From contig NZ_CP063400.1 of assembly GCF_021729865.1 (NCBI RefSeq), forward strand, positions 1,674,001-1,738,000: a stretch of DNA of 64,000 nt. Reading direction: 5' to 3'. This document shows, in pieces, positions 10,669 through 64,000 of this stretch. The translations under genes and the position numbers were made by a program. Below the pieces are notes generated by a model. The model was given only the letters and a program-made list of their open reading frames with translations. It had not been told where the DNA came from and made no database searches. Each line of letters begins with the position of its first letter. The first letter of the stretch is position 1. The stretch is from Hydrogenophaga sp. SL48. GTDB taxonomy: Bacteria; Pseudomonadota; Gammaproteobacteria; Burkholderiales; Burkholderiaceae_C.

Positions 10669-10678
10669 GTTCACCCCC

Positions 10679-10734
10679 GTTGGTAACAGAAATACCAACA
10701 CGGCACCTCCTGTGTACCACCAAAAATACCAACA
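10679..10734. repeat. TACCAAC repeats upstream of integrase (possible arm-type binding sites)
   Basis: The ten-base word AATACCAACA occurs twice in direct orientation, at 10691-10700 and 10725-10734, spaced 34 bases apart. An inverted partial copy, GTTGGTA, lies at 10679-10685. They sit immediately upstream of the integrase start, between it and the tRNA attachment site, where integrase arm-type or excisionase sites are expected. The repeat is seen directly; the binding role is inference. Confidence 0.5.
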
Positions 10735-10777
10735 GAAGCCGTTGGATGGCAAGAACCGTTACGGGACGTCCAGAAAC

Positions 10778-10814
10778 AAAAAAGCCCCGGAACACTTGGG
10801 TATTCCGGGGCTTT
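10778..10814 (-). terminator. Intrinsic terminator after tRNA-Ser
   Basis: Read on the minus strand, a 12-bp perfect stem (AAAGCCCCGGAA / TTCCGGGGCTTT at 10781-10792 and 10803-10814) with a 10-base loop runs straight into a T6 tract. It lies 46 bases past the tRNA 3' end, so it ends the tRNA transcript before the integrase gene. Confidence 0.85.
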
Positions 10815-10858
10815 CAGGGTGTCTTGCGAGACGTCTTGGGACGCTCTGGGACGCATTT

Positions 10859-10949
<91 letters not shown>

Positions 10950-10961
10950 GCGAAGCCCTCG

Positions 10962-10967
10962 ATTGTA
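10962..10967 (-). promoter_or_regulatory. -10 element of tRNA-Ser
   Basis: The minus strand shows TACAAT 12 bases before the tRNA 5' end, at the right distance for transcription starting a few bases upstream of the mature end. No good -35 box is evident (TGACGA is 19 bases further upstream), and this region overlaps the 3' edge of the QmcA-like gene neighbourhood. Confidence 0.45.
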
Positions 10968-10989
10968 GCAGGCTGCAGCACCCATTTCG

Positions 10990-11907
10990 TCAGTCGCCCG
11001 TTTTGATGGTGCCGACCATCTTCATCGCCGAACCGATCAACGCCGAGACCTCGCTCATGTTGCCGGGGATGATGAGGGTGGTGGTGGCGTCGGCCGCCAC
11101 CTTGCCATAGGCGTCCACCGCGCGCTCGGCCACCTTCAGCTGCACGGCCTGTTCGCCACCCGGTTGGCGGATCGCGATGGCGATGCGTTCGATGGCCTGC
11201 GCGGTGGCGTCGGCCACCGCAGTGATGGCGGCCGCTTCACCCTGGGCACTGTTGATGGCGGCCTGCTTTTCACCCTCCGAGCGCGCAATGAAGGCTTCAC
11301 GCTCGCCGGTGGCGATGTTGATCTGCTCCTGGCGGCGCCCTTCGGACGCGGCGATCAGGGCGCGTTTTTCGCGCTCGGCCGTGATCTGGGCCTGCATCGC
11401 GTGAAGAATCTCTTTCGGTGGCGTCAGGTCCTTGATTTCGTAGCGCAGCACTTTCACGCCCCAGTTGAGCGCCGCCTCGTCGATGGCCTGCACGATCTGC
11501 GCATTGATGATGTCGCGCTCTTCAAAAGTCTTGTCCAGCTCCAGCTTGCCGATCACCGAGCGCAACGAGGTCTGTGCCAGCTGGGTCACCGCCACGATGT
11601 AGTTGGACGAGCCGTAGCTGGCGCGCATCGGGTCGGTCACCTGAAAGTACAGGATGCCATCCACCTGCAACTGCGTGTTGTCACGGGTGATGCAGACCTG
11701 ACTGGGCACATCCAGCGGTATTTCTTTCAGACTGTGTTTGTAGGCGACCTTGTCAATGAACGGCACGAGAAAGTTCAGACCCGGGGCCAGCGTGGCGTGG
11801 TACTTGCCCAGGCGCTCGACCACCCAGGCGTTTTGCTGGGGAACCACCTTGATGGCACGAACAATGAAGATGGCCGCGATGATGAAAAGAAAGAGTGCGA
11901 TTTCCAT
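10990..11907 (-). CDS. qmcA: SPFH/band 7 membrane protein (QmcA-like, stomatin/prohibitin family)
   Basis: This is a 305-residue protein with one N-terminal membrane segment (residues 2-18, IALFLFIIAAIFIVRAI). A band 7/SPFH domain follows (VVPQQNAWVVERLGKYHATLAPGLNFLVPFID). An alanine/glutamate-rich coiled coil (about 180-235) and a C-terminal oligomerisation region complete it. It matches the E. coli QmcA layout. Such proteins form large rings around membrane proteases such as FtsH. The NfeD-like gene 77 bases upstream on the same strand is its usual partner, so they are probably one operon. Confidence 0.88.
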   Translation of the reverse strand: MEIALFLFIIAAIFIVRAIKVVPQQNAWVVERLGKYHATLAPGLNFLVPFIDKVAYKHSLKEIPLDVPSQVCITRDNTQLQVDGILYFQVTDPMRASYGSSNYIVAVTQLAQTSLRSVIGKLELDKTFEERDIINAQIVQAIDEAALNWGVKVLRYEIKDLTPPKEILHAMQAQITAEREKRALIAASEGRRQEQINIATGEREAFIARSEGEKQAAINSAQGEAAAITAVADATAQAIERIAIAIRQPGGEQAVQLKVAERAVDAYGKVAADATTTLIIPGNMSEVSALIGSAMKMVGTIKTGD

Positions 11908-49520: not shown

Positions 49521-50288
49521 CTACTTGAGCTTGCCCGAGAGGAACTGCGCCAGCCGCTCGGACTTCGGGTTCACCAGCACCTCGCGCGGATTGCCCTGTT
49601 CCTCGATGCGGCCCTGGTGCAGGAACAGCAGGTGGTTGCTGACCTCGCGGGCAAAGCCCATTTCGTGGGTCACCACCACCATGGTGCGGCCCTCTTCGGC
49701 CAGGGTGCGCATCACGCGCAGCACCTCGGTCACCAGCTCCGGGTCGAGCGCGCTGGTGGGCTCGTCAAACAGCATCACCTCGGGCTCCATGGCCAGCGCG
49801 CGCGCGATCGCCACGCGCTGCTGCTGGCCGCCGGACATGTGGGCCGGGTACTTGCCTTCGACGTCTCGCAGCCCGACCTTCTCCAGGTACTTGCGGGCCG
49901 TGACCACAGCCTCTTCCTTGCCTTTGCCCAACACGTGCATGGGCGCCTCGATGACGTTCTCCAGCACGGTCAGGTGCGACCAGAGGTTGAAGTGCTGGAA
50001 CACCATGGCCAGCTTGGCGCGGGCGCGCTGCAGTTGCTTGTCGTCGGCGGCCTTGAGCATGCCGTCTTTCGCGGTCACGAGCCGGAGTTCTTCGCCAGCC
50101 ACGATGATGCGGCCTTGCTGCGGGCGCTCCAGCAGGTTCATGCAGCGCAGGAAGGTGGATTTGCCGGAACCCGAGGAGCCGATGATGCTGATCACATCCC
50201 CGGCCTGGGCCGTGAGCGACATGCCCTTGAGCACCTCGTGCGAGCCGTAGCTCTTGCGGATGTCGATGGCTTCGAGTTTGGTGGTCAT
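49521..50288 (-). CDS. hisP: Histidine/lysine-arginine-ornithine-type ABC transporter ATP-binding protein
   Basis: This is a 255-residue ATPase closely resembling enterobacterial HisP over its full length. Features: [16 protein letters not shown], Walker [10 protein letters not shown], the HisP-typical insert ITAKDG-like [35 protein letters not shown], signature [15 protein letters not shown], Walker [13 protein letters not shown] and the H-loop [10 protein letters not shown]. It is the last gene of a five-gene minus-strand operon, separated from the permeases by the aspartoacylase-like gene. It should energise uptake of basic amino acids. Confidence 0.92.
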
Positions 50289-50304
50289 GGCGGTGCTCTG
50301 AAAA

Positions 50305-51426
50305 TCAGGGGCTCAGCAGGTTGCCAGAGCGGATGGGCGTGCGGCCGGCAACGCGGCAGAGTTCCAGGCCGGTGGTGGCCCAGCGCAGGTTGTGGCGCGC
50401 ATACACGACGCCGGCGATCGCCGAGTGGATCGGTGTAGCCTGTCCGGACAGGGGGTCGACGACGCGTGCGAGCAACTGGCCCGCCTGCACCACGTCGCCC
50501 ACGTCAGCGGCGAACACGATCACACCCGCGTGCGGGGCATGCAGGGACTCGGTGCCGGCCAGCGGCGTGGCTTCGCACAGGGGTTCGGGCAGGGCAGGGG
50601 CGGGCCCGGCCAGCACGCCGATGTGGCGCAGGTAGCCCACGATGGCCTGGCTGTCTTGCGCTGCGAGCGCATCGGACACGTCGGTCTGCCCGCGCAGTTC
50701 GACGGTGGTGCTGGCACAGGCCAGCGGCACCGGCGCTTTGTCGGCGAAATGTTCGCGCAGCCGCCACCAGGGGCCCGAGAGCGCTTCATCAAACGAGATC
50801 AATGGCCCGGAGCCCCGGGCCCAGAGCAGGGCGCGGGCCCCGAGCAGGCGCGCGAGAGGCGTCATCTGGTCCACCATGGGCTGCTCCACATACAGGTGCA
50901 TCACCGCTTCGAAATCGCAGTGCAGGTCCAACACCACGTCGGCGTCGCAGGCCAGCGTCATCAGGACGTGGCGCAGGCTCTGCAGTTCGGTGGTCGGCGT
51001 CTGCGCTTTCAGCGCGCGGTGCATCGCGGCGCGGATCACCCGCTTGTTCGCGTCGGCATCAGGCCCCAGCTCGGTGGCGACCTCGTCTTTCACCAGCGCG
51101 AAAAAATCCGGGTAGTTCCGGTTGAAGTTCTCCATGCTGCCCAGTTCGAAGCGCCCCATCTGGTGGTGCATCAGGCTCTGGCTGAGGCCGATGGGGTTGC
51201 TCAACGGCACCAGCACCACTTCGCCCACCACTTCACCGCGTTGCTCCGCTGTTTCCAGCAGCGCGCGCAGGTGGTGGGCGGTCAGCATGCCTGGCAGTTC
51301 GTCGGCATGCAGACTGGCCTGCACATAGGCCTTGGGGCCGGTGCCCGGGGCGCCGAAGTGCAGGCTGGTGACCTGTCGCTGGGTACCGATCGAGGGGGAG
51401 AGAAGAGGGTGGTGAACCTGTTGCAT
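50305..51426 (-). CDS. Succinylglutamate desuccinylase/aspartoacylase family protein (M14-like)
   Basis: This is a 373-residue zinc carboxypeptidase-fold amidohydrolase. The first zinc ligands are in [18 protein letters not shown] (HxxE type), then the NFNRNYPDF region, the third ligand in [17 protein letters not shown], and a late catalytic Glu region near [10 protein letters not shown] biotinyl/lipoyl-like C-terminal domain follows ([30 protein letters not shown]). It sits inside the hisJQMP-type operon, 15 bases after the HisM-like gene. The imported substrate may thus be an N-acylated amino acid hydrolysed inside the cell; that is inference. Confidence 0.87.
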
Positions 51427-51441
51427 CAGGCGAATGGAAGG

Positions 51442-52158
51442 TCAGTGCGTGCGGGGACGCAGGTAGGCGAGGAATCGGCGCTCCAGCAGGCGGAACACGT
51501 ACACCAGCGCGAAAGTGAGAATGAAGTACAGCACCGCGACCACGATGAAGGGCTGGAACGCGAGGTAGTAGGTCTTGTAGATCGCATAGGCCGCGTTGGT
51601 CAGGTCGTACAGGGACGGCACCACGCTGGCCAGCGAAGTGGCGTGCAGCATCATCACCACCTCGTTGGAGTACCCGGGCAGGGTGCGCCGCAGGGCACTG
51701 GGCAGGACCAGCCGGAACATCATGTTCCATTTGCTGTACCCCGCCGCCTGGGCGGCTTCGATCTCGCCGGCGGGGGTCTCCTTGATCGCGCCGGCCAGCA
51801 TCTCGATGGTGTAGGCGCAGGTGTTGAGCGTGAAGGCCAGCACCGCGCAGAAGAAGGGGTCTTTGAACCAGGTGAACGGCCAGTGGGTGTCCCACAAGCC
51901 TTGCACCCATTCGAGTTGGGCGATGCCGTAGTAGATGAAATAGACCTGGATCAGCAGCGGCGTGCCGCGCACGACATAGGTGAACAGCCAGACCGGTCCG
52001 TGGACCCAGCGGTTGCGCGACACGCGCATCAGCGTGAGTGGCAGGGTCAGCAGCCCCCCGGCGATCAGGCTGACCGCCAGCAACTCCATGGTGGCGACAA
52101 AACCGGTCCAGTACAGGGCCAGGTTCTCTGGCTGAAAAATGATGGCGAATTTGTCCAT
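51442..52158 (-). CDS. hisM: Basic amino acid ABC transporter permease (HisM-like)
   Basis: This is a 238-residue permease with about five membrane segments. It closely follows HisM (VWLFTYVVRGTPLLIQVYFIYYG, LAFTLNTCAYTIEMLAGAIKETPAGEIEAAQAAGYSKWNMMFRLVLPSAL). The EAA loop contains EIEAAQAAGYSKW. The start overlaps the HisQ-like stop by one base (TGATG). It forms a heterodimeric channel with HisQ. Confidence 0.92.
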   Translation of the reverse strand: MDKFAIIFQPENLALYWTGFVATMELLAVSLIAGGLLTLPLTLMRVSRNRWVHGPVWLFTYVVRGTPLLIQVYFIYYGIAQLEWVQGLWDTHWPFTWFKDPFFCAVLAFTLNTCAYTIEMLAGAIKETPAGEIEAAQAAGYSKWNMMFRLVLPSALRRTLPGYSNEVVMMLHATSLASVVPSLYDLTNAAYAIYKTYYLAFQPFIVVAVLYFILTFALVYVFRLLERRFLAYLRPRTH

Positions 52159-52859
52159 CAGAAGTCGCCCCGTTTCACGCCCACCGAGTAACGGGCCTCG
52201 GCCTTGCGCAGGAGGAGCAAGCTGATGGAGGAAATCAGGAGATAGAGCACACCGGCAAACGCCATGAACAGGATGGCCGCGCCCGGAATTTCGCCGCGCG
52301 CGGCCGCACCGGCCTGCTTGGCGAGGTTGGTGATGTCGGCCAGCCCGATCACAGACACCAGCGCTGTGGCTTTCAGCAGCACCAGCCAGTTGTTGGTGAA
52401 GCTGGGGAGGGCAAAGCGCACCATTTGCGGGAGCACCATGCGACGGAATGTGTAGAGGCGGCTCATGCCAAACGCCCAGCCGGCCTCCGACTGGCCCTTG
52501 GGCACGCTCATGATGGCGCCGCGAAAGGTCTCGGTCATGTACGCGCCGTACACGAAACCGATGGTCAGTACGCCGGCCACGAAGGGGTTGATCTGCGGCC
52601 CGCTGCGGTAACCCAACAGCTCCGCGATGTCATTGACCAGGATCTGCCCGCCGAAGTAAAGCAGCAGCATCCACACCAGGTCCGGGACGCCCCGGATCAC
52701 GGTGGAATAGATGTCGCCGACCCAGTTGAGCCAGCGGTAGGGAGAGAGTTTGGCCGCCGCCCCGGCCAGGCCAAGAACGGCGGCGAACACCAGCGCGCCG
52801 AGCGCGACACCGAGGGTGACGAACAGGCCTTGAAGGATGTTCAGCAGGTAGGTCGTCAT
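52158..52859 (-). CDS. hisQ: Basic amino acid ABC transporter permease (HisQ-like)
   Basis: This is a 233-residue permease with five or six membrane segments. It strongly resembles HisQ: IRGVPDLVWMLLLYFGGQ, NPFVAGVLTIGFVYGAYMTETFRGAIMSVPKGQSEAGWAFGMSRLYTFRRMVLPQM, and the C-terminal ARYSVGVKRGDF that mirrors the enterobacterial protein. It starts 24 bases after the binding-protein gene. Confidence 0.93.
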   Translation of the reverse strand: MTTYLLNILQGLFVTLGVALGALVFAAVLGLAGAAAKLSPYRWLNWVGDIYSTVIRGVPDLVWMLLLYFGGQILVNDIAELLGYRSGPQINPFVAGVLTIGFVYGAYMTETFRGAIMSVPKGQSEAGWAFGMSRLYTFRRMVLPQMVRFALPSFTNNWLVLLKATALVSVIGLADITNLAKQAGAAARGEIPGAAILFMAFAGVLYLLISSISLLLLRKAEARYSVGVKRGDF

Positions 52860-52883
52860 CGGTGCGCGCGCCGGCTCAGTGGA

Positions 52884-53750
52884 TCAGGAACCCCAGATGT
52901 CCACGCCGGGGACGTGCTTCTCGGACAGCTCTTTCCACTTGCCGTTGTCGCGAATGGCCTTGATGCCGGCGTTCAGCGCGTCGCGCAGGGCCGTGTCTTC
53001 CTTGCGCAGGGCCACACCGGCGCCGGCGCCGAAGTACTTGGCGTCGAATTCCACCGGAATGCGGGTACCGGCGCAGCTGTAGTCCTTGCCATCGGGCGTG
53101 GACAGGAAACCGCCGTTGACCTCGACCACGTCGGCCACGGTGCCGTCCAGGCGACCCGACTTGATGTCGAGGTAGACCTGATCTTGCGCGTCGTAAGGCA
53201 CGATGGTCGCACCGGCGGTCTTCAGTTCACCCATGGCGTACTTTTCCTGGGTGGAGGCTTTCAGGACACCGATCTTCTTGCCTTTGAAGTTGGCCGCTTC
53301 GGCACCCAGATTGAGCGCCGTCTTCACGACCACGCAGGACGGCGTGTTGTAGTACTTGCCCGTGAAGTCCACGGCCTGCTTGCGCTCTTCGGTGATGGAC
53401 ATCGACGAGATGATCACATCGTATTTCTTGGCCTGAAGACCGGGGATCATGCCGTCCCAGGCCTGTTCGACGAACACGCACTTGCTCTTGAGTTCGTCGC
53501 ACAGGGCCTTGGCCACGTCCACGTCGAAGCCGGCAGGCTCGCCCGCGTCGGTCTTGTAGGTGAAGGGCTTGTAGGTCGGGTCGATGGCCACCCGCAGCTC
53601 AGGCCACGGGCTCGCGGGAGCCGGCGCAGCGGCGGGCGCTTCGGCGGTCGGCGCAGGAGCGGCTGGCGCGGGTGCAGGCGTCTCGGTCTTGCCGCAGCCG
53701 ACGAGGGAAGCTGCGCCAATGAGGCTGAGCGAGAGGAACAGGTGTTTCAT
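52884..53750 (-). CDS. Basic amino acid ABC transporter substrate-binding lipoprotein (family 3, HisJ/ArgT-like)
   Basis: This is a 288-residue solute-binding protein family 3 member. The lipoprotein signal has a lipobox SLVGC at residues 15-19, followed by a proline/alanine-rich linker (about 20-47) tethering it to the membrane. The binding domain opens LRVAIDPTYKPFTYKTDAGEPAGFDVDVAKALC. The lysine-arginine-ornithine family words VEQAWDGMIPGLQAKKYDVIISSMSIT and KYFGAGAGVALRKED also occur. It is first in the operon. The ligand is probably a basic or N-acyl amino acid. Confidence 0.92.
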   Translation of the reverse strand: MKHLFLSLSLIGAASLVGCGKTETPAPAPAAPAPTAEAPAAAPAPASPWPELRVAIDPTYKPFTYKTDAGEPAGFDVDVAKALCDELKSKCVFVEQAWDGMIPGLQAKKYDVIISSMSITEERKQAVDFTGKYYNTPSCVVVKTALNLGAEAANFKGKKIGVLKASTQEKYAMGELKTAGATIVPYDAQDQVYLDIKSGRLDGTVADVVEVNGGFLSTPDGKDYSCAGTRIPVEFDAKYFGAGAGVALRKEDTALRDALNAGIKAIRDNGKWKELSEKHVPGVDIWGS

Positions 53751-54300: not shown

Positions 54301-55350
54301 CTACGGCAGGTTTTCGCGGAAGATCACCTGGCTTCGAGTCGTCTCCACCCCCCTGGTGGCTTCCCGACCATCCCGCAGGTTGGCAAAAATGCGCACGCAG
54401 TTCATCACGGCGCTCTGCGGGTTCTGGGTGATGACGGCGTCCATGGTGCCGTCGATCAGCATGGCACGCGTGTCGGGCGTGAGTCCGTGGCCGATGAAGA
54501 CCATCCTGCGCTCGCTTCCGGCTTCTTTCAGCGCCCGGCCGATGCCCTCGGATCCGCCGCCGATGTTGTAGATGCCCGCGAGATCGGCGTGTTGCTCGAG
54601 CAGCGCGCGGGCCTGACGGTAGTTCTTCTCGGCGTCGTCCTGACCCTCGCGCACGCCCACCACCTGAACCAGGGGGAACTGCTCTTCGAACAGGTGCAGA
54701 AAGCCCGCTTCGCGCTCCTCGTGGGCACGGTAGCGCAGCGAGCCAGCGATCATCGCGACCCGGGCCTGGCCGCTCTGGGCCAGTGGTCCCATGAAACGGG
54801 CGATCAGGTAGGCGGCGGTGCGGCCCGCAGCCCGGTTGTCCAGCCCCACATAGGCCACCCGGCGCGAGCTGGACAGGTCGGAGATCAGGGTGACGGTGGG
54901 CACGCCCTGCTCTGCCAGCTGGGCCACCGCCTCTCGCACCACGGGGTGCTCCAGCGCCATGAAGGCGATGCCGTCGCAGCGCTTGCCGTGGTGCAGCAGC
55001 GCCTGTGCCAGGGCTTCGGGGTTGAAGCTCTCGATGTAGGCCGCCTGGCAGCGAACGTTGAACGGTGCCCAGTGGTCCTGTGCGTACCCGATGACGTCAC
55101 CCAGCATCTGCAGGAAGCGGTTGCTGCCCTCCGGAATCAGCACCATCAGGCGCAGGGGCTGGGGTTGCAGCGCGGTGTGCAGTTCGGCCTGCGGCAGATA
55201 ACCCAGTCTGCTGGCGGCCTGCAGGACCCGCGAAACGGTGGCCCGGCGCACGCCGGGACGGTGGTTCAGCACGCGGTCCACCGTGGCCGTGGAGACACCG
55301 GCCAACTGCGCGATGTCGGGAATGCGGGGGGTGGTGGGGTGTGAGGACAT
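54301..55350 (-). CDS. LacI family transcriptional regulator
   Basis: This is a 349-residue regulator. The N-terminal LacI helix-turn-helix is RIPDIAQLAGVSTATVDRVLNHRPGVRRATVSRVLQAASRLGYLP, with the less common TVDRVLN in place of VSRVLN. The periplasmic-binding-like ligand domain follows (GLDNRAAGRTAAYLIARFMG, and IYNIGGGSEGIGRALKEAG). These ligand domains usually bind sugars or related compounds. It is divergent from the ABC/RuBisCO-like operon, 231 bases away, with repeated ATCAGA words between, and is the likely regulator of that operon. The ATG at 55350 is preferred to a TTG at 55365. Confidence 0.9.
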   Translation of the reverse strand: MSSHPTTPRIPDIAQLAGVSTATVDRVLNHRPGVRRATVSRVLQAASRLGYLPQAELHTALQPQPLRLMVLIPEGSNRFLQMLGDVIGYAQDHWAPFNVRCQAAYIESFNPEALAQALLHHGKRCDGIAFMALEHPVVREAVAQLAEQGVPTVTLISDLSSSRRVAYVGLDNRAAGRTAAYLIARFMGPLAQSGQARVAMIAGSLRYRAHEEREAGFLHLFEEQFPLVQVVGVREGQDDAEKNYRQARALLEQHADLAGIYNIGGGSEGIGRALKEAGSERRMVFIGHGLTPDTRAMLIDGTMDAVITQNPQSAVMNCVRIFANLRDGREATRGVETTRSQVIFRENLP

Positions 55351-55368
55351 GGGAAATTCAATCAAAAT

Positions 55369-55453
55369 ACATCAGAATATCTGCTGGTATCTGATGTCTT
55401 GTCCGCATACTATCACTCTGCGTTCGATGCCGGAAGGCATCAGATCACATCAG
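55369..55453. promoter_or_regulatory. Repeated ATCAGA motifs, putative LacI-type operators
   Basis: ACATCAGA (55369-55376) and its reverse complement TCTGATGT (55390-55397) form a dyad with a 13-base centre. Two more copies, CATCAGA (55438-55444) and ACATCAG (55447-55453), lie closer to the transporter operon. Four copies in 85 bases between a LacI gene and its divergent operon suggest operators. Confidence 0.5.
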
Positions 55454-55503
55454 TATTAACCCTAGGTTGTGGCGGCCATGACCGACCACACAGGAGACAA
55501 GAC

Positions 55504-55563
55504 ATGCCCCATCACTCCGCCTTTTCTGCCCTCTCCGCCCGTTTCAGGCTTGGCGCGCGCTGA
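55504..55563 (+). CDS. Short leader reading frame (19 codons) ahead of the ABC/RuBisCO-like operon
   Basis: The frame has an ATG 7 bases after AGGAG (55492-55496) and ends with TGA 18 bases before the first permease gene. The peptide is short, arginine- and serine-containing (MPHHSAFSAL opens), and has no recognisable family. It may be a leader peptide coupling translation into the permease gene, or the remnant of a lost gene start. The ribosome-binding site is convincing; function is unknown. Confidence 0.4.
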   Translation: MPHHSAFSALSARFRLGAR

Positions 55564-55581
55564 AACCCCTGCATCGTCCCC

Positions 55582-56274
55582 ATGAGCTACGAGTTCGACT
55601 TCGCCAGCGTGCTGGCCAGCTGGCCCCAGTTCCTCGAAGGGGCTTGGATGACCATCATGCTGTCCTTCCCCGCCACGGTCATCGGGTTTGTCGGCGGCAC
55701 GCTGCTGGCCATCGGTCGCCGCAGCGACCAACGCTGGCTGGCCAAAGCCTGCGGCGCCTACGTGGAGGTGCTGCGCAACACACCGCTGCTGGTGCAGGTG
55801 TTTCTGGTGTTCTTCGGTCTCGCCAGCCTGGGCTGGAAGGTGTCGGCTTTCTCAGCCGCGCTGCTGTCGCTGGTGATCAACGTGGCGGCGTATTCCTGCG
55901 AAATCATGCGGGCCGGCATGGACTCCATCCACAAGGGCCAGATCGAGGCGGCCGAGTGCCTGGGCCTCACGCGCCGGCAGGTGTACTGGCACGTGGTGCT
56001 GCGTCCCGCGATGGAGAAGGTCTACCCCGCGTTGACCAGCCAGTTTGTGCTGCTGATGCTGGCCTCGTCCATCACTTCTCAGATTTCGGTGGAAGAGCTC
56101 ACCGCTGCCGCCGCCCGTGTGCAGTCCGACACCTTTCGCCCGTTCGAGGCCTACATCCTGGTCGCCGTGGCCTACCTGATCCTGTCGCTGCTGATGCGTT
56201 TGGGGCTGTGGCTGTTCGGGCAGATCGTGTTCACACGCAAGCGCAAGCTCGGCGCATCGGGAGGCCTGCGATGA
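55582..56274 (+). CDS. Polar amino acid-type ABC transporter permease (first)
   Basis: This is a 230-residue permease of the His/Glu/Gln type with about five membrane segments (FLEGAWMTIMLSFPATVIGFVGGTLLAIG). The family loop is YVEVLRNTPLLVQVFLVFFGLASLGWKV and the EAA region EIMRAGMDSIHKGQIEAAECLGLTRRQVYWHVVLRPAM. It is the first structural gene of the operon leading to the RuBisCO-like protein. The stop overlaps a 15-codon bridging frame. Confidence 0.9.
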   Translation: MSYEFDFASVLASWPQFLEGAWMTIMLSFPATVIGFVGGTLLAIGRRSDQRWLAKACGAYVEVLRNTPLLVQVFLVFFGLASLGWKVSAFSAALLSLVINVAAYSCEIMRAGMDSIHKGQIEAAECLGLTRRQVYWHVVLRPAMEKVYPALTSQFVLLMLASSITSQISVEELTAAAARVQSDTFRPFEAYILVAVAYLILSLLMRLGLWLFGQIVFTRKRKLGASGGLR

Positions 56275-56318
56275 GCCCGCGCCTGTTCCGCCTCCACCAC
56301 GCGGAGGTGATGCTGTGA
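56271..56318 (+). CDS. 15-codon bridging reading frame between the two permease genes
   Basis: ATG at 56271 overlaps the stop of the upstream permease (ATGA). Its own TGA at 56316-56318 overlaps the GTG start of the next permease (GTGA). It includes the next gene's GGAGG ribosome-binding site. It looks like a translational-coupling relay; whether the peptide itself matters is unknown, and chance is possible. Confidence 0.35.
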   Translation: MSPRLFRLHHAEVML

Positions 56319-56998
56319 TCGAGGGTGGATTCAATGCCTACCACCTGCAGTACCTGCTGCTGGGTGCGCTGTGGACGATCGGCCTGTCGCTGATCTCTTT
56401 TGTTGGCGGTGGCCTGGCCGGTGGTGTGATCGCCCTGTGCCGCGTCAGCCCCAACCGCGCTGTGCGCTGGGCCACCATCGCCTGGATCCAGCTGATCCAG
56501 GGCACGCCGCTGCTGGTGGTGCTGTTCCTGTGTTACTTCGGTCTCTCGATCGCCGGCCTGGAGCTGCCCGGCATCGTCGCCGCCAGCATCGCCATGGTGG
56601 TGTACGTCAGCGCCTACCTGGGTGAAATCTGGCGCGGCTGCATCGAGTCGGTGCCACGCACCCAGTGGGAGGCAGCCGAGTGCCTGGCCCTCTCACGCGC
56701 CCAGCGCATGCGGCTGGTGGTGCTGCCGCAGGCGGTGCGCATCGCCACGCCGCCCACGGTGGGCTTCATGGTGCAGATCGTGAAGAACACCTCGCTGGCG
56801 TCCATCGTGGGGTTCATCGAACTGGTGCGGGCCGGCCAGCTCATCAACAACTCCATCTTCCAGCCCTTTCTGGTCTACCTGCTGATCGCCGTCATGTACT
56901 TCGCCATGTGTTACCCGCTGTCGGTCTGGAGCCGCAAGCTGGAACAGCGCCAGCAGTTCGGCCTCCGTGCAGCAACCCCTTCCGCGACCGCCCTATGA
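56315..56998 (+). CDS. Polar amino acid-type ABC transporter permease (second)
   Basis: This is a 227-residue permease partner of the preceding one. Features: WIQLIQGTPLLVVLFLCYFGLSI, SIAMVVYVSAYLGEIWRGCIESVPRTQWEAAECLALSRAQRMRLVVLPQAV (EAA loop) and the C-terminal PLSVWSRKLEQR. The GTG start at 56315 is chosen because GGAGG precedes it by 8 bases and homology begins there. Its stop overlaps the ATPase start (ATGA). Confidence 0.9.
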   Translation: MIEGGFNAYHLQYLLLGALWTIGLSLISFVGGGLAGGVIALCRVSPNRAVRWATIAWIQLIQGTPLLVVLFLCYFGLSIAGLELPGIVAASIAMVVYVSAYLGEIWRGCIESVPRTQWEAAECLALSRAQRMRLVVLPQAVRIATPPTVGFMVQIVKNTSLASIVGFIELVRAGQLINNSIFQPFLVYLLIAVMYFAMCYPLSVWSRKLEQRQQFGLRAATPSATAL

Positions 56999-57741
56999 AG
57001 CCCGAAGACACCCTGAATCCCGTCGTCGATCTCAAAGACGTGCACAAACGCTTCGGCAGCAACCAGGTGCTCCAAGGCGTGTCCTTCGCCATCCCGAAGG
57101 GCCAGGTCGTGGCCATCATCGGCAAAAGCGGCTCGGGCAAAAGCACCGCGCTGCGCTGCATCGACCGGCTGGAGGTCATCGACAGCGGCACCATCCAGGT
57201 CTGCGGCCACGCGGTGCATTCGCCCGACGTCAACCTGCGCCAGCTGCGCCAGGACGTGGGCATCGTGTTCCAGAGCTACAACCTGTTCCCGCACCTGACG
57301 GTGGAGCAGAACATCACCCTTGCCCCCAAGGCGGTGAAGAACCTGTCCGCAGCCCAGGCGCTCGAGATCGCCGCCCGAACGCTCAAGCAGGTGGGCCTGG
57401 CCGACAAGGCGCAGGCCTACCCCGAGCAGCTGTCGGGCGGCCAGCAGCAGCGTGTGGCGATCGCCCGCTCGCTGGCCATGGAACCCCAGGTGATGCTGTT
57501 CGACGAGGTCACCTCGGCCCTCGACCCGCAGCTCACCGGCGAGGTGCTGCGCGTGATCGAGGCGCTGGCCGAAGGCGGCATGACCATGGTGCTGGTCACC
57601 CACGAGATGGAGTTCGCCGCCCGGGTGGCCGACACCATCATCTACATGCACGAGGGCAAGGTCTGGGAGACCGGCTCGGGCGACATGCTCAAACACCCGC
57701 AGACCGCCGAGCTGCGCGATTTTCTGTCCCACGGACTGTGA
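56995..57741 (+). CDS. Polar amino acid-type ABC transporter ATP-binding protein
   Basis: This is a 248-residue GlnQ/HisP-type ATPase: LKDVHKRFGSNQVLQGVSF, Walker A GKSGSGKST, Q-loop VFQSYNLFPHLTVEQNI, signature [15 protein letters not shown], Walker B VMLFDEVTSALD and H-loop THEMEFA. Walker B has DEV rather than the common DEP, a tolerated change in this group. It overlaps the second permease by 4 bases. 150 bases follow before the binding-protein gene. Confidence 0.92.
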   Translation: MKPEDTLNPVVDLKDVHKRFGSNQVLQGVSFAIPKGQVVAIIGKSGSGKSTALRCIDRLEVIDSGTIQVCGHAVHSPDVNLRQLRQDVGIVFQSYNLFPHLTVEQNITLAPKAVKNLSAAQALEIAARTLKQVGLADKAQAYPEQLSGGQQQRVAIARSLAMEPQVMLFDEVTSALDPQLTGEVLRVIEALAEGGMTMVLVTHEMEFAARVADTIIYMHEGKVWETGSGDMLKHPQTAELRDFLSHGL

Positions 57742-57891
57742 AATGAGTCCACCCCGTTTCTCGTGCACTTCCCCGGAATCGCACCAGCAGTGCGAGAACG
57801 CAAGTCACTCGCATCCCCCTCAAGGGGTGCCCGCGAACGACACATTGAATTTCAGCTTCCCGTTCCATCACCACCCCCAGGAGACAACACC

Positions 57892-58686
<795 letters not shown>

Positions 58687-58733
58687 AGACACCAGCGTCT
58701 CGCCGCCCTGCCCCATCACCAAAGGAATTCCTC

Positions 58734-59276
58734 ATGAGCCGTCATTTCGGCGCCATCCGCCAACTGGGCTACGTGGTCCACGACATCGAAGCTGCCATGG
58801 CGTACTGGAGCCGCACGCTGGGCGTGGGCCCCTGGTTCTACAACCCGCGCGTGCCGATTCAGAACTACCAGTACCGCGGCGAGGCCCACGAGCCGCACAA
58901 CTCGGTGGCGCTGGCCAACTCGGGCTATGTGCAGGTCGAGTTGATCCAGACCCGCAACGACGTGCCGTCCATGTACCGCGACTTCCTGCAGGCCGGGCGC
59001 ACCGGGCTGCAGCACGTGGCCTACTGGACCAGCGACTACGACGCCGACCTCGCGCGGCTGACGGCCGAGGGGTTCAAGACGGTGATGAGTGGCGAGGTCG
59101 GCGAGCGCGGCCGTTTCGTTTACTTCGACACCGAGTTCCACCCCGGCACCGTGATCGAGCTGTCGGAAGTGGCCGGCCCCAAGGGCCGCATGTTCGACCT
59201 GATCCGCGCGGAATCCGAAACCTGGGACGGCCAGACCGACCCGGTGCGCCCCTTCCCCGACCTCTCGAAGATCTGA
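58734..59276 (+). CDS. VOC-fold (glyoxalase/bleomycin-resistance superfamily) protein
   Basis: This is a 180-residue protein with two vicinal-oxygen-chelate modules: IRQLGYVVHDIEAAMAYWSRTLGVGPW and GLQHVAYWTSDYDADLARLTAEGF. Probable metal ligands are Q (in QLGYVV), E (VQVELIQ), H (LQHVAYW) and E (VIELSEV), so one His of the classical set is Gln. VOC enzymes are epimerases, isomerases, dioxygenases or lyases; the reaction is unknown. It lies 47 bases after the binding-protein gene and 69 before the RuBisCO-like gene, presumably acting on the same substrate. Confidence 0.82.
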   Translation: MSRHFGAIRQLGYVVHDIEAAMAYWSRTLGVGPWFYNPRVPIQNYQYRGEAHEPHNSVALANSGYVQVELIQTRNDVPSMYRDFLQAGRTGLQHVAYWTSDYDADLARLTAEGFKTVMSGEVGERGRFVYFDTEFHPGTVIELSEVAGPKGRMFDLIRAESETWDGQTDPVRPFPDLSKI

Positions 59277-59345
59277 TCTTCAAGAAGCCTCGCCTTCCTG
59301 CGCCCGTCCCGAGTGCGCAGGAAGGTGGTCAACCCCACAGCAACC

Positions 59346-60623
59346 ATGTCCCCAGACCGCTTTGAAGCCACCTACCTGATCGAGACCCCGCTGGACCCGG
59401 CCCACGTGGCCGAAGTGCTGGCGGGTGAACAATCGTGTGGCACCTTCACCCGCGTCGAGGGCGAGACCGATGCCTTGCGCGAGCGCGCCCGTGCCACCGT
59501 CGAGTCGGTCGAGCTGCTGGACGTGGCCCCCGCGCCGTCGCTGCCCAACGGCTGGATGCAGCGGCGCGGCATGTTCGACAGTCCCCAGACCTGGCAGCGT
59601 GCCCGCCTGAGGGTGAGCTTCCCCTGCGACAACATCGGGCCCAACCTGCCCACGCTGGCCGCCACCGTGTCGGGCAACCTGTACGACCTGGGCGAAGTCA
59701 CGGGCCTGCGGCTGGAGGCGATGAAGCTGCCGCGCGCCTACCGCGCGCAGTTCGACCTGCCCCGCCACGGCATCGCCGGCACCCGCGCGCTGACCGGTGT
59801 GCAGGGCCGCCCCTTGATCGGCACCATCATCAAACCCAACGTGGGCCTGTCGGCCGAAGAAACCGGTGCGCTCGCGGGCCGCCTCTGCGCGGCCGGGGTG
59901 GACTTCATCAAGGACGACGAGGTCTGCGCCAACCCGGCCCACGCGCCGCTGGCAGAGCGCGTCAAGGCCGTGATGCGCCGCGTGCGCGCCCACCAGGACA
60001 AGACAGGCAAGCTGGTGATGGTCGCTTTCAACATCACCGACGAGACCGACGCCATGCGCCGGCACGCCGACCTGATCGCCGCCGAAGGTGGCAGCTGCGT
60101 GATGGTCAGTTTGAACTGGTGCGGGTACTCCGCCGTGCAGACCCTGCGCCGCCACACCCCGCTGGCGCTCCACGGCCACCGCAACGGCTACGGCGCGCTG
60201 TCGCGCCACCCGCTGCTGGGCTTTTCGTTCAATGCCTGGCAGACGCTGTGGCGGCTGGCGGGGGTGGACCACATGCACGTGCACGGCCTGCAGGGCAAGT
60301 TCTCGCAGACCGACGACGAGGTGATCGCCGACGCGCACGACACGCTGAGCCCGCTGTGTGAAGGCCTGGACGACCGCGTGTTGCCCGCTTTTTCCAATGG
60401 CCAGTGGGCCGGCACCGTGCCCGCCACCTGGGACAGCGTCCGCTCCAGCGACCTGCTCTTCATGTCGGGCGGCGGCATCCTGGCCCACCCGGACGGTCCC
60501 GCCGCCGGGGTCGCCAGCCTGCAGCAGGCCTGGGACGCGGTGCAGAAGGGTGAAACGCTCGCGCAGCGGGCCGTGCACGCCTCCGAACTGCGCCGCGCCA
60601 TTGAATTCTTCGGCCGGAAATGA
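59346..60623 (+). CDS. RuBisCO-like protein (large-subunit family, form IV type)
   Basis: This is a 425-residue member of the RuBisCO large-subunit superfamily. The metal/carbamylation site KDDE is at residues 189-192 (Lys189 equivalent to the carbamylated Lys). The TIKPKLG-type stretch reads TIIKPNVGLS (Lys kept, second Lys lost). A loop-6-type Lys lies at about 318 (HGLQGKF), and the SGGG phosphate-binding motif near 374 (LLFMSGGGILAHPDGP). Ser/His positions differ from true RuBisCO, so it should not fix CO2. Relatives include enolases and 3-oxo-isoapionate-4-phosphate decarboxylases (OiaX). A DUF1537 kinase next door fits an OiaK-OiaX type step, which is inference. Confidence 0.92.
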   Translation: MSPDRFEATYLIETPLDPAHVAEVLAGEQSCGTFTRVEGETDALRERARATVESVELLDVAPAPSLPNGWMQRRGMFDSPQTWQRARLRVSFPCDNIGPNLPTLAATVSGNLYDLGEVTGLRLEAMKLPRAYRAQFDLPRHGIAGTRALTGVQGRPLIGTIIKPNVGLSAEETGALAGRLCAAGVDFIKDDEVCANPAHAPLAERVKAVMRRVRAHQDKTGKLVMVAFNITDETDAMRRHADLIAAEGGSCVMVSLNWCGYSAVQTLRRHTPLALHGHRNGYGALSRHPLLGFSFNAWQTLWRLAGVDHMHVHGLQGKFSQTDDEVIADAHDTLSPLCEGLDDRVLPAFSNGQWAGTVPATWDSVRSSDLLFMSGGGILAHPDGPAAGVASLQQAWDAVQKGETLAQRAVHASELRRAIEFFGRK

Positions 60624-61966
60624 CAGCGCCCTTGTTCGGCTGGTACGGCGACGACTTCACCGGCGCCACCGACACGCTGGCCGTGCTGGCACAGGCCGGC
60701 CTGCGGTCCATGCTGTTCATGGGGGTGCCCGGCCGCGCGGCCCTGACTGCGGCCGGACCCCTGGACGCCGTGGGCATTGCGGGGGCCGCACGCGCCATGG
60801 CGCCCGAGGCCATGCGCGCCGAGCTCACGGCGGTGGGCGGCTTCTTTCGGACGCAGGCGCCGCCCGTGCTGCACTACAAGGTGTGCTCCACCTTCGACAG
60901 CGCCCCGCACGTTGGCAACATCGCCTGCGCGATCCAGACCCTGCATCCGTTTGTCGATCACCGCTGGGTGCCCATCGTGGGCGGGCAGCCCAGCCTGGGC
61001 CGCTACTGCGCCTTCAGCAACCTCTTCGCAGCGGCCGGCACCGGCGGCACCGTGCACCGCATCGACCGCCACCCCACCATGCGCCAGCACCCGGTCACCC
61101 CGATGGGTGAGGCCGACCTGCGTGTGCATCTGGCGGCGCAGGGGCTGGGCAACATCAGCTCGCTGCATGGCCCGGCCTACGAGCAAACCACCGACGCGCT
61201 CGACGCGACGCTGCAAGAACTGCTCGCTACCGACGCCGCCCTGCAGCCCATGCTGCTGGATCTGAGTGAGATCCGCCAGCTCGCTGCGGTGGGCCGGCTG
61301 CTGTGGCAACAGTCCCAACAGGCCCGGCTGCTGGCCGTCGGTTCCAGCGCCGTGGCGCAGGCGCTGGTGGCGCACTGGGCCGGTTCTGCCGCACCCGCGT
61401 CGCGCTCACCATCTCGCGCAATGGCCGCCGCAGAGGGCCCTGTCTTTGCATGGGCCGGCAGCCTGTCGCCCCTGACCGCCGCCCAGGTGCAGGCCGCCAC
61501 GGCCTATCAGCGCATCGCCGTGGACGCTCAGCGCCTCAGCGACGATGCGGCGTACGCCCAGACCACTCAGGACCGCATCTGTGCGGGACTGCAATCCGGA
61601 CAGCACGTCCTGGCCTACACCGCCCCCACCAGCGGTCAGGTGCCCGACACCGCATCGGCGGCCCGTGTCGCCCAGGTCAGCGCCGAGCTGATCGCCCGCG
61701 TGGTGCAAGCCCAGACGGAGCATGGCGCACCGCTTCGGCGTGTGGGCATCGCGGGCGGCGACACCTCCAGTCACGCCGTGCAGGCGCTGCGGCTATGGGG
61801 CCTGTCCTACCTGGCCACCATTTGCCCTGGCGTCACCCTGAGCCGCGCCCACAGCGCCGACCCGGCCCGCGAGGGCCTGGAGTTGATGCTGAAGGGCGGG
61901 CAGATGGGGGGCGTGGATCTGTTTGAGCGCCTGCTGGGTGGCGTCGGGCCTGCTCAGACTTCCTAA
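60620..61966 (+). CDS. Four-carbon acid sugar kinase family protein (DUF1537)
   Basis: This is a 448-residue kinase-family protein with the N-terminal GWYGDDFTGATDTLAVLAQ (family [A/G]DDFTGA substrate-binding motif). Later segments are HHRWVPIVGGQPSLGRY-like (VDHRWVPIVGGQPSLGRYCAFSN). The C-terminal nucleotide-binding domain has RRVGIAGGDTSSHAVQALRLWG and LMLKGGQMGG. Known members phosphorylate erythronate, threonate or 3-oxo-isoapionate. It overlaps the RuBisCO-like gene by 4 bases (ATGA). The pairing resembles apionate/isoapionate catabolic loci (OiaK with OiaX or OiaT), but no other member of that set is visible here. Confidence 0.88.
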   Translation: MTAPLFGWYGDDFTGATDTLAVLAQAGLRSMLFMGVPGRAALTAAGPLDAVGIAGAARAMAPEAMRAELTAVGGFFRTQAPPVLHYKVCSTFDSAPHVGNIACAIQTLHPFVDHRWVPIVGGQPSLGRYCAFSNLFAAAGTGGTVHRIDRHPTMRQHPVTPMGEADLRVHLAAQGLGNISSLHGPAYEQTTDALDATLQELLATDAALQPMLLDLSEIRQLAAVGRLLWQQSQQARLLAVGSSAVAQALVAHWAGSAAPASRSPSRAMAAAEGPVFAWAGSLSPLTAAQVQAATAYQRIAVDAQRLSDDAAYAQTTQDRICAGLQSGQHVLAYTAPTSGQVPDTASAARVAQVSAELIARVVQAQTEHGAPLRRVGIAGGDTSSHAVQALRLWGLSYLATICPGVTLSRAHSADPAREGLELMLKGGQMGGVDLFERLLGGVGPAQTS

Positions 61967-61998
61967 AACGCTCAGGCCCGCTTGGTTTGCAGGGCCTG

Positions 61999-62033
61999 AA
62001 AAAAAAGCCGGCGGGCTTGGCGCTCGCCGGCTT
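61999..62033 (-). terminator. Intrinsic terminator after tctA
   Basis: On the minus strand AAGCCGGCG (62025-62033) pairs with CGCCGGCTT (62005-62013) and continues into a T8 run (61999-62006). It begins 20 bases past the tctA stop. A second inverted repeat, CAGGCCC...GGGCCTG at about 61974-61998, precedes the A-run and may help stop plus-strand transcription from the kinase operon. Confidence 0.85.
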
Positions 62034-62052: not shown

Positions 62053-63564
62053 TCAGTCTTCGACGAAGGCTTCTTCGCGCTTCTTCTTGATCGACGGCAG
62101 CAGCACGACCGTCAGCAGGATCGCGGCAATCGCCAGCAGCGAGGCCGACAGCGGACGGGTCACGAACACCGACCAGTCGCCACGCGAAATCAGCAGCGCA
62201 CGGCGCAGGTACTCTTCCATCATCGGACCCAGGATCAGGCCCAGCAACAGTGGTGCGGGTTCGCAGCCCAGCTTGATGAACAGGTAACCGATGAAACCGA
62301 AGATGGCCACCATCCAGATGTCGAAGCTGTTGTTGTTGGTCGAGTACACACCGATCGCACAGAACAGCAGGATGGCAGGGAACAGCCAGCGGTACGGCAC
62401 GGTCAGCAGCTTGATCCAGATGCCGATCAGCGGCAGGTTCAGGATCACCAGCATCAGGTTGCCGATCCACATCGAGGCGATCAGGCCCCAGAACAGCTCG
62501 GGGTTGCTGGTCATGACCTGCGGACCCGGCTGGATGTTGTGGATGGTCATGGCACCGACCATCAGCGCCATCACGGCGTTGGGCGGAATGCCCAGGGTCA
62601 GCAGCGGGATGAACGAGGTTTGCGAACCGGCGTTGTTGGCCGACTCAGGGGCCGCCACACCGCGGATGTTGCCCTGGCCGAACGGCACTTCACCGGGCTT
62701 CAGCTTGGTCTTCTTCTCGATCGTGTAGGCGGCGAAAGCAGACAGCAGCGCACCGCCACCGGGCAGGATGCCGAGCGCAGAACCCAGCGCCGTGCCACGC
62801 AGAACCGCCGGCACCATGTTCTTGAAATCTTCTTTGGTCGGCATGATGCCTTCGACCTTGCCGGTGAAGACCTCGCGGTGTTCTTCGGGCTGCGACAGGT
62901 TGTTGATGATTTCGCCGTAGCCGAACACGCCCATCGCGATCACGATGAAGCTGATACCGTCGGTGAGCTCGGGGATGTCAAAGCTGAACCGTGCCACGCC
63001 GGAGTTCACGTCGGTGCCCACCAGACCCAGCAGCAGGCCCAGCAGGATCATGGCCAGGGCCTTGATCAGCGAGCCGGAGGCCAGCACCACGGCACCGATC
63101 AGGCCGACAATCATGAGCGAGAAGTACTCGGCAGGGCCGAAGTTCAGCGCCATCTCGGTCAGCGGCGGCGCGAAGGCGGCCACGATCAGCGTGCCCACGC
63201 AGCCGGCGAAGAACGAGCCCAGACCGGCCGCCGCGAGAGCGGGGCCTGCCCTGCCCTTGCGCGCCATCTGGTAACCGTCGATCACCGTCACCACCGAGGA
63301 CGATTCACCGGGCAGGTTCACCAGGATGGCGGTGGTCGAGCCACCGTATTGCGCACCGTAATAGATGCCGGCCAGCATGATGAGCGCGGCCACCGGCGGC
63401 AGGCCGTAGGTGGCTGGCAGCAGCATGGCGATGGTCGCCACCGGGCCAATGCCTGGCAAAACGCCGATCAGCGTGCCCAGCAGGCAGCCGACGAAGGCGT
63501 ACATCAGGTTCTGGAGGGTGAACGCGACGCTGAAACCCAGCGAGAGGTTGTCAATCAATTCCAT
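62053..63564 (-). CDS. tctA: Tripartite tricarboxylate transporter permease TctA
   Basis: This is a 503-residue large membrane subunit of a TTT-family secondary transporter, with about 12 membrane segments. Family words: VGCLLGTLIGVLPGIGPVATIAMLLPATYGL (the conserved GVLPGIGP), IYYGAQYGGSTTAILVNLPGESSSVVTVIDGY, and MALNFGPAEYFSLMIVGL. These systems use a periplasmic TctC-type binding protein for citrate, tricarballylate or other carboxylates; none is in the window. It lies 15 bases after the TctB gene and converges on the kinase operon. Confidence 0.94.
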   Translation of the reverse strand: MELIDNLSLGFSVAFTLQNLMYAFVGCLLGTLIGVLPGIGPVATIAMLLPATYGLPPVAALIMLAGIYYGAQYGGSTTAILVNLPGESSSVVTVIDGYQMARKGRAGPALAAAGLGSFFAGCVGTLIVAAFAPPLTEMALNFGPAEYFSLMIVGLIGAVVLASGSLIKALAMILLGLLLGLVGTDVNSGVARFSFDIPELTDGISFIVIAMGVFGYGEIINNLSQPEEHREVFTGKVEGIMPTKEDFKNMVPAVLRGTALGSALGILPGGGALLSAFAAYTIEKKTKLKPGEVPFGQGNIRGVAAPESANNAGSQTSFIPLLTLGIPPNAVMALMVGAMTIHNIQPGPQVMTSNPELFWGLIASMWIGNLMLVILNLPLIGIWIKLLTVPYRWLFPAILLFCAIGVYSTNNNSFDIWMVAIFGFIGYLFIKLGCEPAPLLLGLILGPMMEEYLRRALLISRGDWSVFVTRPLSASLLAIAAILLTVVLLPSIKKKREEAFVED

Positions 63565-63579
63565 GGTCGGTCCTTGAGA

Positions 63580-64000
63580 TCAGTTCGTCAGGAACGCAGG
63601 CCACACGGGGAACTGCAGGTTCAGCAATTTGACAAAGGCACCGTAGCTGCCGGCCGCCAGGATGGTGGCGAGAACCAGCGTGGCCTTGATCTTCATCCCC
63701 GGCTGCGCCATGCTGGCGATGAACACGAGCGCGTAGATGGCCACGATCAGGCCCATCGCGGGAAAGCCGATCGATGGCAGGCCGACGAGCAGCGCGCCAA
63801 AGGCCAAATTGGCCCCGAGCACGAAGCCCAGCGGGCGCCAGGCAAAGGCGCCGATCTTGTCGCCCCCGGGCCCTCCCTGTGTGAACGACTTGAACGTGAT
63901 GATCACGCCCAGAACCGCCAGGATGATGCCCAGCATGAGCGGGAAATAACCGGGTCCCATGCGGGCGGCGCCCCCCACCTGGTAGCTTTGGGCTCCCCAG
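63580..64000 (-). CDS. tctB: Tripartite tricarboxylate transporter TctB family protein (5' end outside window)
   Basis: This is the C-terminal 139 residues of the small TctB membrane subunit. It opens at the edge with WGAQSYQVGGAARMGPGYFPLMLGIILAVLGVIITFKSF (family G(A/T)AARMGPGYFP word). Three further hydrophobic segments follow, ending VWPAFLTN. The frame is open to the window edge, so the start codon is not seen; a GTG at 63978 inside is not the true start. It is translated just before tctA (15-base gap). Confidence 0.9.
   Translation of the reverse strand, partial: WGAQSYQVGGAARMGPGYFPLMLGIILAVLGVIITFKSFTQGGPGGDKIGAFAWRPLGFVLGANLAFGALLVGLPSIGFPAMGLIVAIYALVFIASMAQPGMKIKATLVLATILAAGSYGAFVKLLNLQFPVWPAFLTN

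Follow-up and report, generated by a model that had tools for sequence, protein, structure and literature searches.

The window analysed here, a stretch of 64,000 nucleotides from Hydrogenophaga sp. SL48 (contig NZ_CP063400.1, positions 1,674,001 to 1,738,000), carries at 54301-61966 an eight-gene locus that combines a RuBisCO-like protein (RLP), a VOC protein and a DUF1537 kinase with an ABC importer. A LacI-family repressor gene lies divergent from a plus-strand operon encoding, in this order, two permeases, an ATPase, a solute-binding protein (SBP), the VOC protein, the RLP and the kinase (Table 1). Gene calls and domain searches confirmed the genes, order, strands and LacI divergence described in the initial annotation, which had been made from the sequence alone. 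The ATGA overlaps, which it described as several, number only two (permease 2/ATPase, 56995-56998; RLP/kinase, 60620-60623). For the candidate operator between LacI and the first permease, the CATCA words CATCAAAA and GCATCAGA occur in 46 and 22, respectively, of 72 intergenic regions of relatives.

Table 1 Genes and candidate operator of the LacI-VOC-RLP-kinase locus, in window positions.
Feature	Position	Strand	Basis or remark
LacI-family repressor (PF00356 + PF13407)	54301..55365	-	domain search; ATG start probably 55350
Candidate operator, inverted repeat ACATCAGA-13-TCTGATGT	55369..55397	.	LacI-permease intergenic region
ABC permease 1, amino-acid type (HEQRo_perm_3TM)	55582..56274	+	domain/family models
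ABC permease 2, amino-acid type	56315..56998	+	domain/family models; likely start GTG 56315
ABC ATPase, GlnQ-like, under the cut-off of every one of the best 25 models listed	56995..57741	+	
Family-3 SBP	57892..58686	+	likely start 57892; Arg for the carboxylate present, Thr188 in place of the alpha-amino Asp
VOC / Glyoxalase_4 protein, proposed isomerase	58734..59276	+	Q10, E69, H94, E142 invariant, putative metal site
RLP, form IV	59346..60623	+	likely start ATG 59346, not GTG 59313
DUF1537 (SBD_N + NBD_C) sugar-acid kinase, OiaK-like, under the OiaK cut-off	60620..61966	+	domain/family models

The VOC-RLP-kinase cassette is a real, widespread catabolic unit. A scan of 84,980 species genomes yielded 416 confirmed RLP relatives, the best 80 of which, all at least 71% identical, were examined in their genomic context. 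At every one of these 80 loci the RLP has a VOC match and a kinase match no more than 1.5 kb away, and LacI is present at 77, the three misses being contigs of 5.7-6.2 kb. Besides the cassette's own clusters, gene clusters appear at most 11 times across the 80 neighbourhoods listed. Closest to the window RLP, at 94-96% identity, are the RLPs of seven loci that carry the label Acidovorax and of one metagenome-assembled genome; two further genomes of the same genus as the window's in the sample gave no match, so the distribution of the cassette is patchy. Among 250 genomes of the same family, VOC proteins scoring above 300 bits and RLPs of the VOC clade occur in the identical 11 genomes (one RLP being split), and 16 more genomes carry other RLPs without a VOC protein of the cassette subgroup. 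The sampled genome sets overlap, with some genomes in more than one, so counts from different sets are not independent.

The same division appears when plasmids and other genomes are included, in a broader set of 79 loci (L083-L161, the window's own genome counted once). A VOC match adjoins the RLP in 24 of them, with RLP identities of at least 58% except in L145 (55%), and including L126 (61%), where the RLP is split; in the other 55 there is no such match and RLP identity is at most 53%. Five Rhodobacterales plasmid records (RLP identity 58-63%) keep the order LacI, TRAP transporter (as three separate genes), VOC, RLP, kinase, and plasmids of Azospirillum, Roseomonas and Neorhizobium keep the cassette order with a fused TRAP. 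In a tree of 100 RLP rows, which includes 21 of the 80 nearest loci and excludes the window's own genome (L093) and the split RLP of L126, the VOC-associated RLPs form a single clade of 43 rows with support of 100/100 and L145 as sole outlier; the form-I outgroup of this tree carried an upstream extension, and the residue table described below used the corrected start. Among the findings that would overturn its pathway idea, the initial annotation had named a firm grouping of the RLP with a known enzyme together with non-conserved neighbours, and this combination was not observed.

Active sites were compared across the aligned RLP rows at 20 tabulated RuBisCO positions, and the window RLP keeps 15 of these. 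It retains the KDDE and SGGG motifs and lacks the second lysine of TIKPKLG, just as had been read from the sequence: in the VOC clade an Asn takes the place of this residue, K177, in all 43 rows. E60, N123, K175, K201, D203, E204, H294, H327 and K334 are kept in all 43, and the VOC-less sister groups likewise keep these residues and not K177; if these residues are indeed what carboxyl transfer and hydrolysis require, the set could mark an OiaT-type transcarboxylase/hydrolase. OiaX rows keep 11 of the 20 positions; among those they lack are four that the window RLP clade keeps, namely E60 (D in OiaX rows), N123 (G), H327 (Q) and S379 (G or C). OiaX is the best NCBIfam model for the RLP (NF042437, 407.9 bits against a cut-off of 700, which a plasmid-borne OiaX, L091, exceeds with 740 bits). 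The scores against carboxylating RuBisCO models also lie under their cut-offs (rubisco_III, 224.6 against 497; PRK04208, 216 against 438). The window's genome, one contig of 5,433,040 bases, has two RuBisCO-family matches, namely the cassette RLP and one large subunit with TIKPKLG and KDDE present (467 bits against Pfam RuBisCO_large). Membership of the RLP superfamily would also accommodate a methionine-salvage enolase of the MtnW type, an identity that we rejected and consider extremely improbable: the RLP scores well under both MtnW cut-offs (TIGR03332, 114 bits against 514; PRK09549, 147 against 409), the cassette contains no methionine-salvage gene, and, the cassette's own clusters aside, nothing recurs more than 11 times across the 80 neighbourhoods listed.

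The kinase exceeds the gathering cut-offs of both domains of the DUF1537 kinase family (SBD_N, 157.8 bits; NBD_C, 93.9 bits) and thus belongs to that family. Against the OiaK model NF042436 it scores 297.4 bits (cut-off 700), a cut-off that two kinases adjoining genes for ApnO-like proteins also miss (575 and 590 bits), and against the OtnK model it scores lower still, at 170 bits (cut-off 350). Because both RLP and kinase fall well under the respective cut-offs, OiaX/OiaK membership was rejected and the pair is not filed under these names.

The VOC protein exceeds the cut-off of PF13669 (Glyoxalase_4) with 96.4 bits, and its residues Q10, E69, H94 and E142 are invariant in 25 rows of one alignment and 24 of another. 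By analogy we take these four to be metal ligands, the first of them Gln as in human glyoxalase I, which places the protein among the VOC metalloenzymes. It scores 27.8 bits against methylmalonyl-CoA epimerase (TIGR03081; cut-off 115), and unlike that enzyme and glyoxalase I it is genetically tied to an RLP and a kinase. Its reaction may be that of an epimerase or of some other isomerase.

The importer is the variable part of the locus. The initial annotation had singled out an amino-acid-type importer as a distinctive partner of the enzymes, a view that does not hold: 60 of the 80 nearest loci have a TRAP transporter with fused small and large permease, 18 have an ABC SBP of the window type, and the remaining two (L019, L029) carry either a different TRAP or a truncated one. 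In the window SBP and those of the 18 loci, Arg107 is present in 19 of 19 and Thr188 replaces Asp in 19 of 19. We take Arg107 to be the carboxylate contact, and the Asp found at position 188 in amino-acid binders to be the contact of the alpha-amino group. The comparison SBPs 5T0W and 6SVF have Asp where the cassette SBPs have Thr188, and the second SBP of the window, which shows Asn there in a gapped alignment, is no clean control. The cassette SBP therefore lacks the Arg and Asp combination of amino-acid binders, and amino acids are unlikely as its cargo. An ordinary amino-acid uptake operon with unrelated trailing enzymes, as the family-3 type of the importer might suggest, was accordingly rejected and is very improbable, given that enzymes and LacI stay the same where TRAP takes the importer's place, in 60 of the 80 loci, and that the alpha-amino Asp is replaced throughout. 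The cassette suggests that sugar-acid uptake can recruit an importer of the 'amino-acid' type.

The TRAP SBPs of the relatives have as best PDB match 4OAN, R. palustris RPB_2686, to which they are 56-65% identical (59 loci, sequence search); a structure model of such an SBP was poor (mean predicted local distance difference test score, pLDDT, 50.1), and its matches served only to name 4OAN. The density in 4OAN was reportedly modelled as acetolactate, a 2-hydroxy-2-methyl-3-oxo acid; if so, the transporter of the relatives would bind a 2-hydroxy-3-oxo acid skeleton, a point in favour of the isoapionate-type reading given below. The searched literature, which mostly excludes subscription papers, contains no mention of 4OAN. 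Similar TRAP transporters occur at VOC-less sister loci, with permeases 65-76% identical in L133, L137 and L143 (tblastn) and, compared along their whole length, 71-72% identical in L184 and L185, and these five loci also carry an SDR. An SDR gene likewise lies between LacI and TRAP in six of the 80 VOC loci and in Neorhizobium; a close copy of this SDR is absent from the window's genome (best match 41%; none at E 1e-50).

A natural exchange of parts offers a clue to the substrate. At locus L182 (genome G722, one contig, 7.15 Mb), LacI (63% identity), TRAP SBP (77%), TRAP permease (77%) and VOC (79%) are those of the cassette, and the RLP and kinase are instead 70% and 61% identical to those of a Microvirga locus (L134), where the RLP-kinase pair adjoins a PGDH_C-family protein with a weak KARI_N match. 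We take this Microvirga protein to be a putative D-apionate oxidoisomerase, ApnO. The L182 kinase scores 551 bits against OiaK (cut-off 700), compared with 297 for the window kinase. An ApnO-like match is absent from 13 of the 16 VOC genomes searched, including the window's genome and G722, and was found in the controls G600 and G702 and in the VOC genomes G355, G800 and G880. The earlier statement that apionate-type genes are absent thus holds, for the ApnO-like oxidoisomerase, beyond the locus and throughout the genome, in a search for which G600 and G702 served as positive controls, and in G722 the VOC protein stands in ApnO's place beside an OiaK-like kinase. At L190 (G355), the cassette adjoins Gfo/Idh, ABC and ApnO-like genes, a set that resembles one in Labrenzia beside an RLP-kinase pair without a cassette-type VOC. 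The apionate-type pair of L182 and the apionate-type neighbours of L190 point to an intermediate like 3-oxo-isoapionate, and the substrate, which the initial annotation had called unrecognised, need not be so. As a separate observation on G355, the cassette RLP of L190 is split into two frames (10003-11469; 275 and 196 amino acids) and another RLP-kinase pair (L111) lies about 13 kb away.

Our results suggest that the cassette probably works like the 3-oxo-isoapionate branch, with substrate and VOC reaction predicted by comparison of genes and residues. We see an even chance that it is, in full, a LacI-controlled cassette that breaks down an isoapionate-type, probably branched sugar acid by means of a VOC isomerase, the kinase and an RLP that cleaves to 3-phosphoglycerate and glycolate; our confidence in this reading rests on the L182 exchange and on the co-occurrence of VOC and RLP. 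The ABC importer, or TRAP in most near relatives, would bring in a carboxylate without an alpha-amino group, as its SBP suggests. A 2-oxo acid, imported or made by the SDR where one is present, would be the substrate of the VOC protein, which would act as a metal-dependent isomerase yielding a 2-hydroxy-3-oxo acid. By homology to OiaK and OtnK, the kinase would phosphorylate the terminal hydroxyl of this 3-oxo acid, and the RLP would decarboxylate and cleave the product through enediolate chemistry, acting in all likelihood as a transcarboxylase/hydrolase, so that 3-phosphoglycerate and glycolate could enter central metabolism. The suggestion in the initial annotation of an acid-catabolic unit with a VOC isomerase or epimerase fits the conserved unit, an RLP that is not MtnW and a VOC protein with four invariant residues at metal positions; the function assigned to it stays a prediction.

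The same cassette could be read with the RLP as a simple OiaX-like decarboxylase of a 3-oxo-acid phosphate, giving a tetrulose or pentulose phosphate for isomerases encoded elsewhere. Decarboxylation is the minimal reaction and OiaX, at 408 bits, is the best-scoring NCBIfam model, yet we consider this rather unlikely, since OiaX rows differ at E60, N123, H327 and S379, kept in the window clade, and since the cassette has no C4-phosphate isomerase and the genome no RpiB-family match (the same search was positive in 7 of 14 control genomes). The lack of a further isomerase in the cassette and of an RpiB match, together with pyruvate kinase or enolase genes near some VOC-less sister RLP-kinase pairs, fits products that enter lower glycolysis, such as 3-phosphoglycerate and glycolate.

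DUF1537 kinases act on several sugar acids, and the OtnK model does score 170 bits on the cassette kinase. The four-carbon acid sugar pathways reportedly described by Zhang et al. in 2016 (OtnK, OtnC, OtnI) resemble the route proposed here in that a 2-oxo/3-oxo isomerase first supplies the 3-oxo acid on which a DUF1537 kinase then acts, and differ from it in that the cassette has an RLP for the decarboxylase OtnC and a VOC protein for OtnI, and a kinase at less than half the OtnK cut-off. A substrate other than isoapionate, such as an unbranched or other 3-oxo acid of the tetronate or pentonate type, or one for a D-hamamelose-type route with an RLP oxygenase, deserves consideration as a minority possibility. 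The RLP oxygenase of the Ochrobactrum D-hamamelose pathway (Kim et al. 2018, as cited in PMC8914248 and PMC10173188) resembles the cassette RLP in the RuBisCO-like C-C cleavage in sugar catabolism that is proposed for the latter. Against such substrates, the kinase scores lower on OtnK than on OiaK, the pair introduced by exchange at L182 is OiaK-like, and the window's cassette has no dehydrogenase.

Several points weigh against the isoapionate-type reading. Neither RLP nor kinase comes near the OiaX and OiaK cut-offs. Nearly all of the 15 retained active-site positions are also retained in the VOC-less sister groups, so that they do not set the VOC clade apart. Only one genome showed the exchange of RLP and kinase, and three of the 16 VOC genomes searched, including that of L190, have an ApnO-like gene, so the VOC protein is not simply a substitute for ApnO everywhere. 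VOC homologues at 52-61% identity have different neighbours, and the stretches fetched around them gave no RLP match; the fold alone thus does not fix the reaction, and the link to the RLP holds for a subgroup and not for the whole VOC family. Finally, it is from genes, conservation and residues that we infer both substrate and turnover.

A more specific form of the isoapionate-type reading is a tentative proposal that we consider unlikely in all its parts together. The VOC protein, as a metalloenzyme of glyoxalase fold, would be a ketol-acid isomerase (alpha-ketol, hydroxymethyl-migrating), converting a 2-oxo acid, for instance 2-oxo-apionate, to the 3-oxo-iso acid in place of the isomerising half of ApnO, and the RLP, its RuBisCO active site largely intact, would carry out an internal decarboxylation, recarboxylation and hydrolysis, which would make the three-enzyme route from import to 3-phosphoglycerate redox-free. 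Such a ketol-acid isomerase would, as far as is known, be a reaction new to the VOC superfamily. If the RLP cleaves as proposed, it would represent a natural catabolic use of the carboxyl-transfer and hydrolysis steps of RuBisCO with a changed K177, useful for understanding how RuBisCO chemistry evolved.

Catabolism of D-apiose and D-apionate (Carter et al. 2018, described in PMC6302742) employs the kinase OiaK with RLPs, namely the decarboxylase OiaX and a transcarboxylase/hydrolase from Xanthobacter. Like these systems, the window's cassette pairs a DUF1537 kinase with an RLP, and the likeness is closer at L182, with its OiaK-like, apionate-type pair, and at L190, with its adjoining apionate-type genes. 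Unlike them, it has a VOC protein and LacI instead of an ApnO-like match in the genome, is served by a TRAP or family-3 ABC importer, and has an RLP and kinase far under the OiaX and OiaK cut-offs. The cassette is a new variant within the DUF1537-RLP kind, with a possibly new VOC reaction. In the searched literature, which includes few subscription papers, no paper joined apionate to RuBisCO-like proteins, DUF1537 to the VOC family, or a four-carbon acid sugar kinase to both a TRAP transporter and a ribulose-bisphosphate carboxylase. PDB 3NWR, a very close relative of the cassette RLP (E 1.6e-197), is known as a structure only, with no relevant mention in the searched literature (one unrelated match; subscription papers mostly outside it). 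The RLP clade is coherent, its three-enzyme setting is fixed and the structure of a close relative is solved, so that its function can be tested directly.

Other RLP-kinase pairs have neighbours of their own. On the haloarchaeal plasmids L086 (6614-10704) and L135 (5046-9153), two of the 55 loci without a match to the window VOC, RLP-DUF1537 pairs lie near a different, shorter Glyoxalase_4 protein (137-141 amino acids), possibly an independent VOC association, and near an unassigned protein of about 268 amino acids. In Natronosalvus (L086) an Asp/Glu racemase family gene is also close to the pair, as on a Rufibacter plasmid (L087, 7998-12689), where RLP, kinase, Asp/Glu racemase and a bile-acid:sodium-type symporter adjoin pectinesterase and glycoside hydrolase genes. 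In Labrenzia, likewise among the 55, an annotated VOC family protein about 7 kb downstream has no match to the window VOC. The lower-identity VOC homologues at L173, L174, L175, L176 and L199-L207, where no RLP match was found, stand beside CMD-family and other genes, which by eye from their translations include LysR, SDR and a tripartite-type binding protein.

Within the window, two inverted repeats at 61973-62031 flank an A8 run between the kinase and a convergent TctA gene, and the second repeat, followed by T8 on the minus strand, resembles an intrinsic terminator. The TctA gene (PF01970) and the gene preceding it, perhaps TctB, occupy 62053-63999 on the minus strand and cluster with no gene from the loci of the 80 relatives. 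On the other side of the cassette, a second family-3 ABC importer is encoded at 49521-53750 on the minus strand, with a succinylglutamate desuccinylase/aspartoacylase-type gene (PF24827; 50305-51426) between its ATPase and permease, an arrangement by which an N-acyl amino acid or a similar compound is perhaps taken up and hydrolysed.

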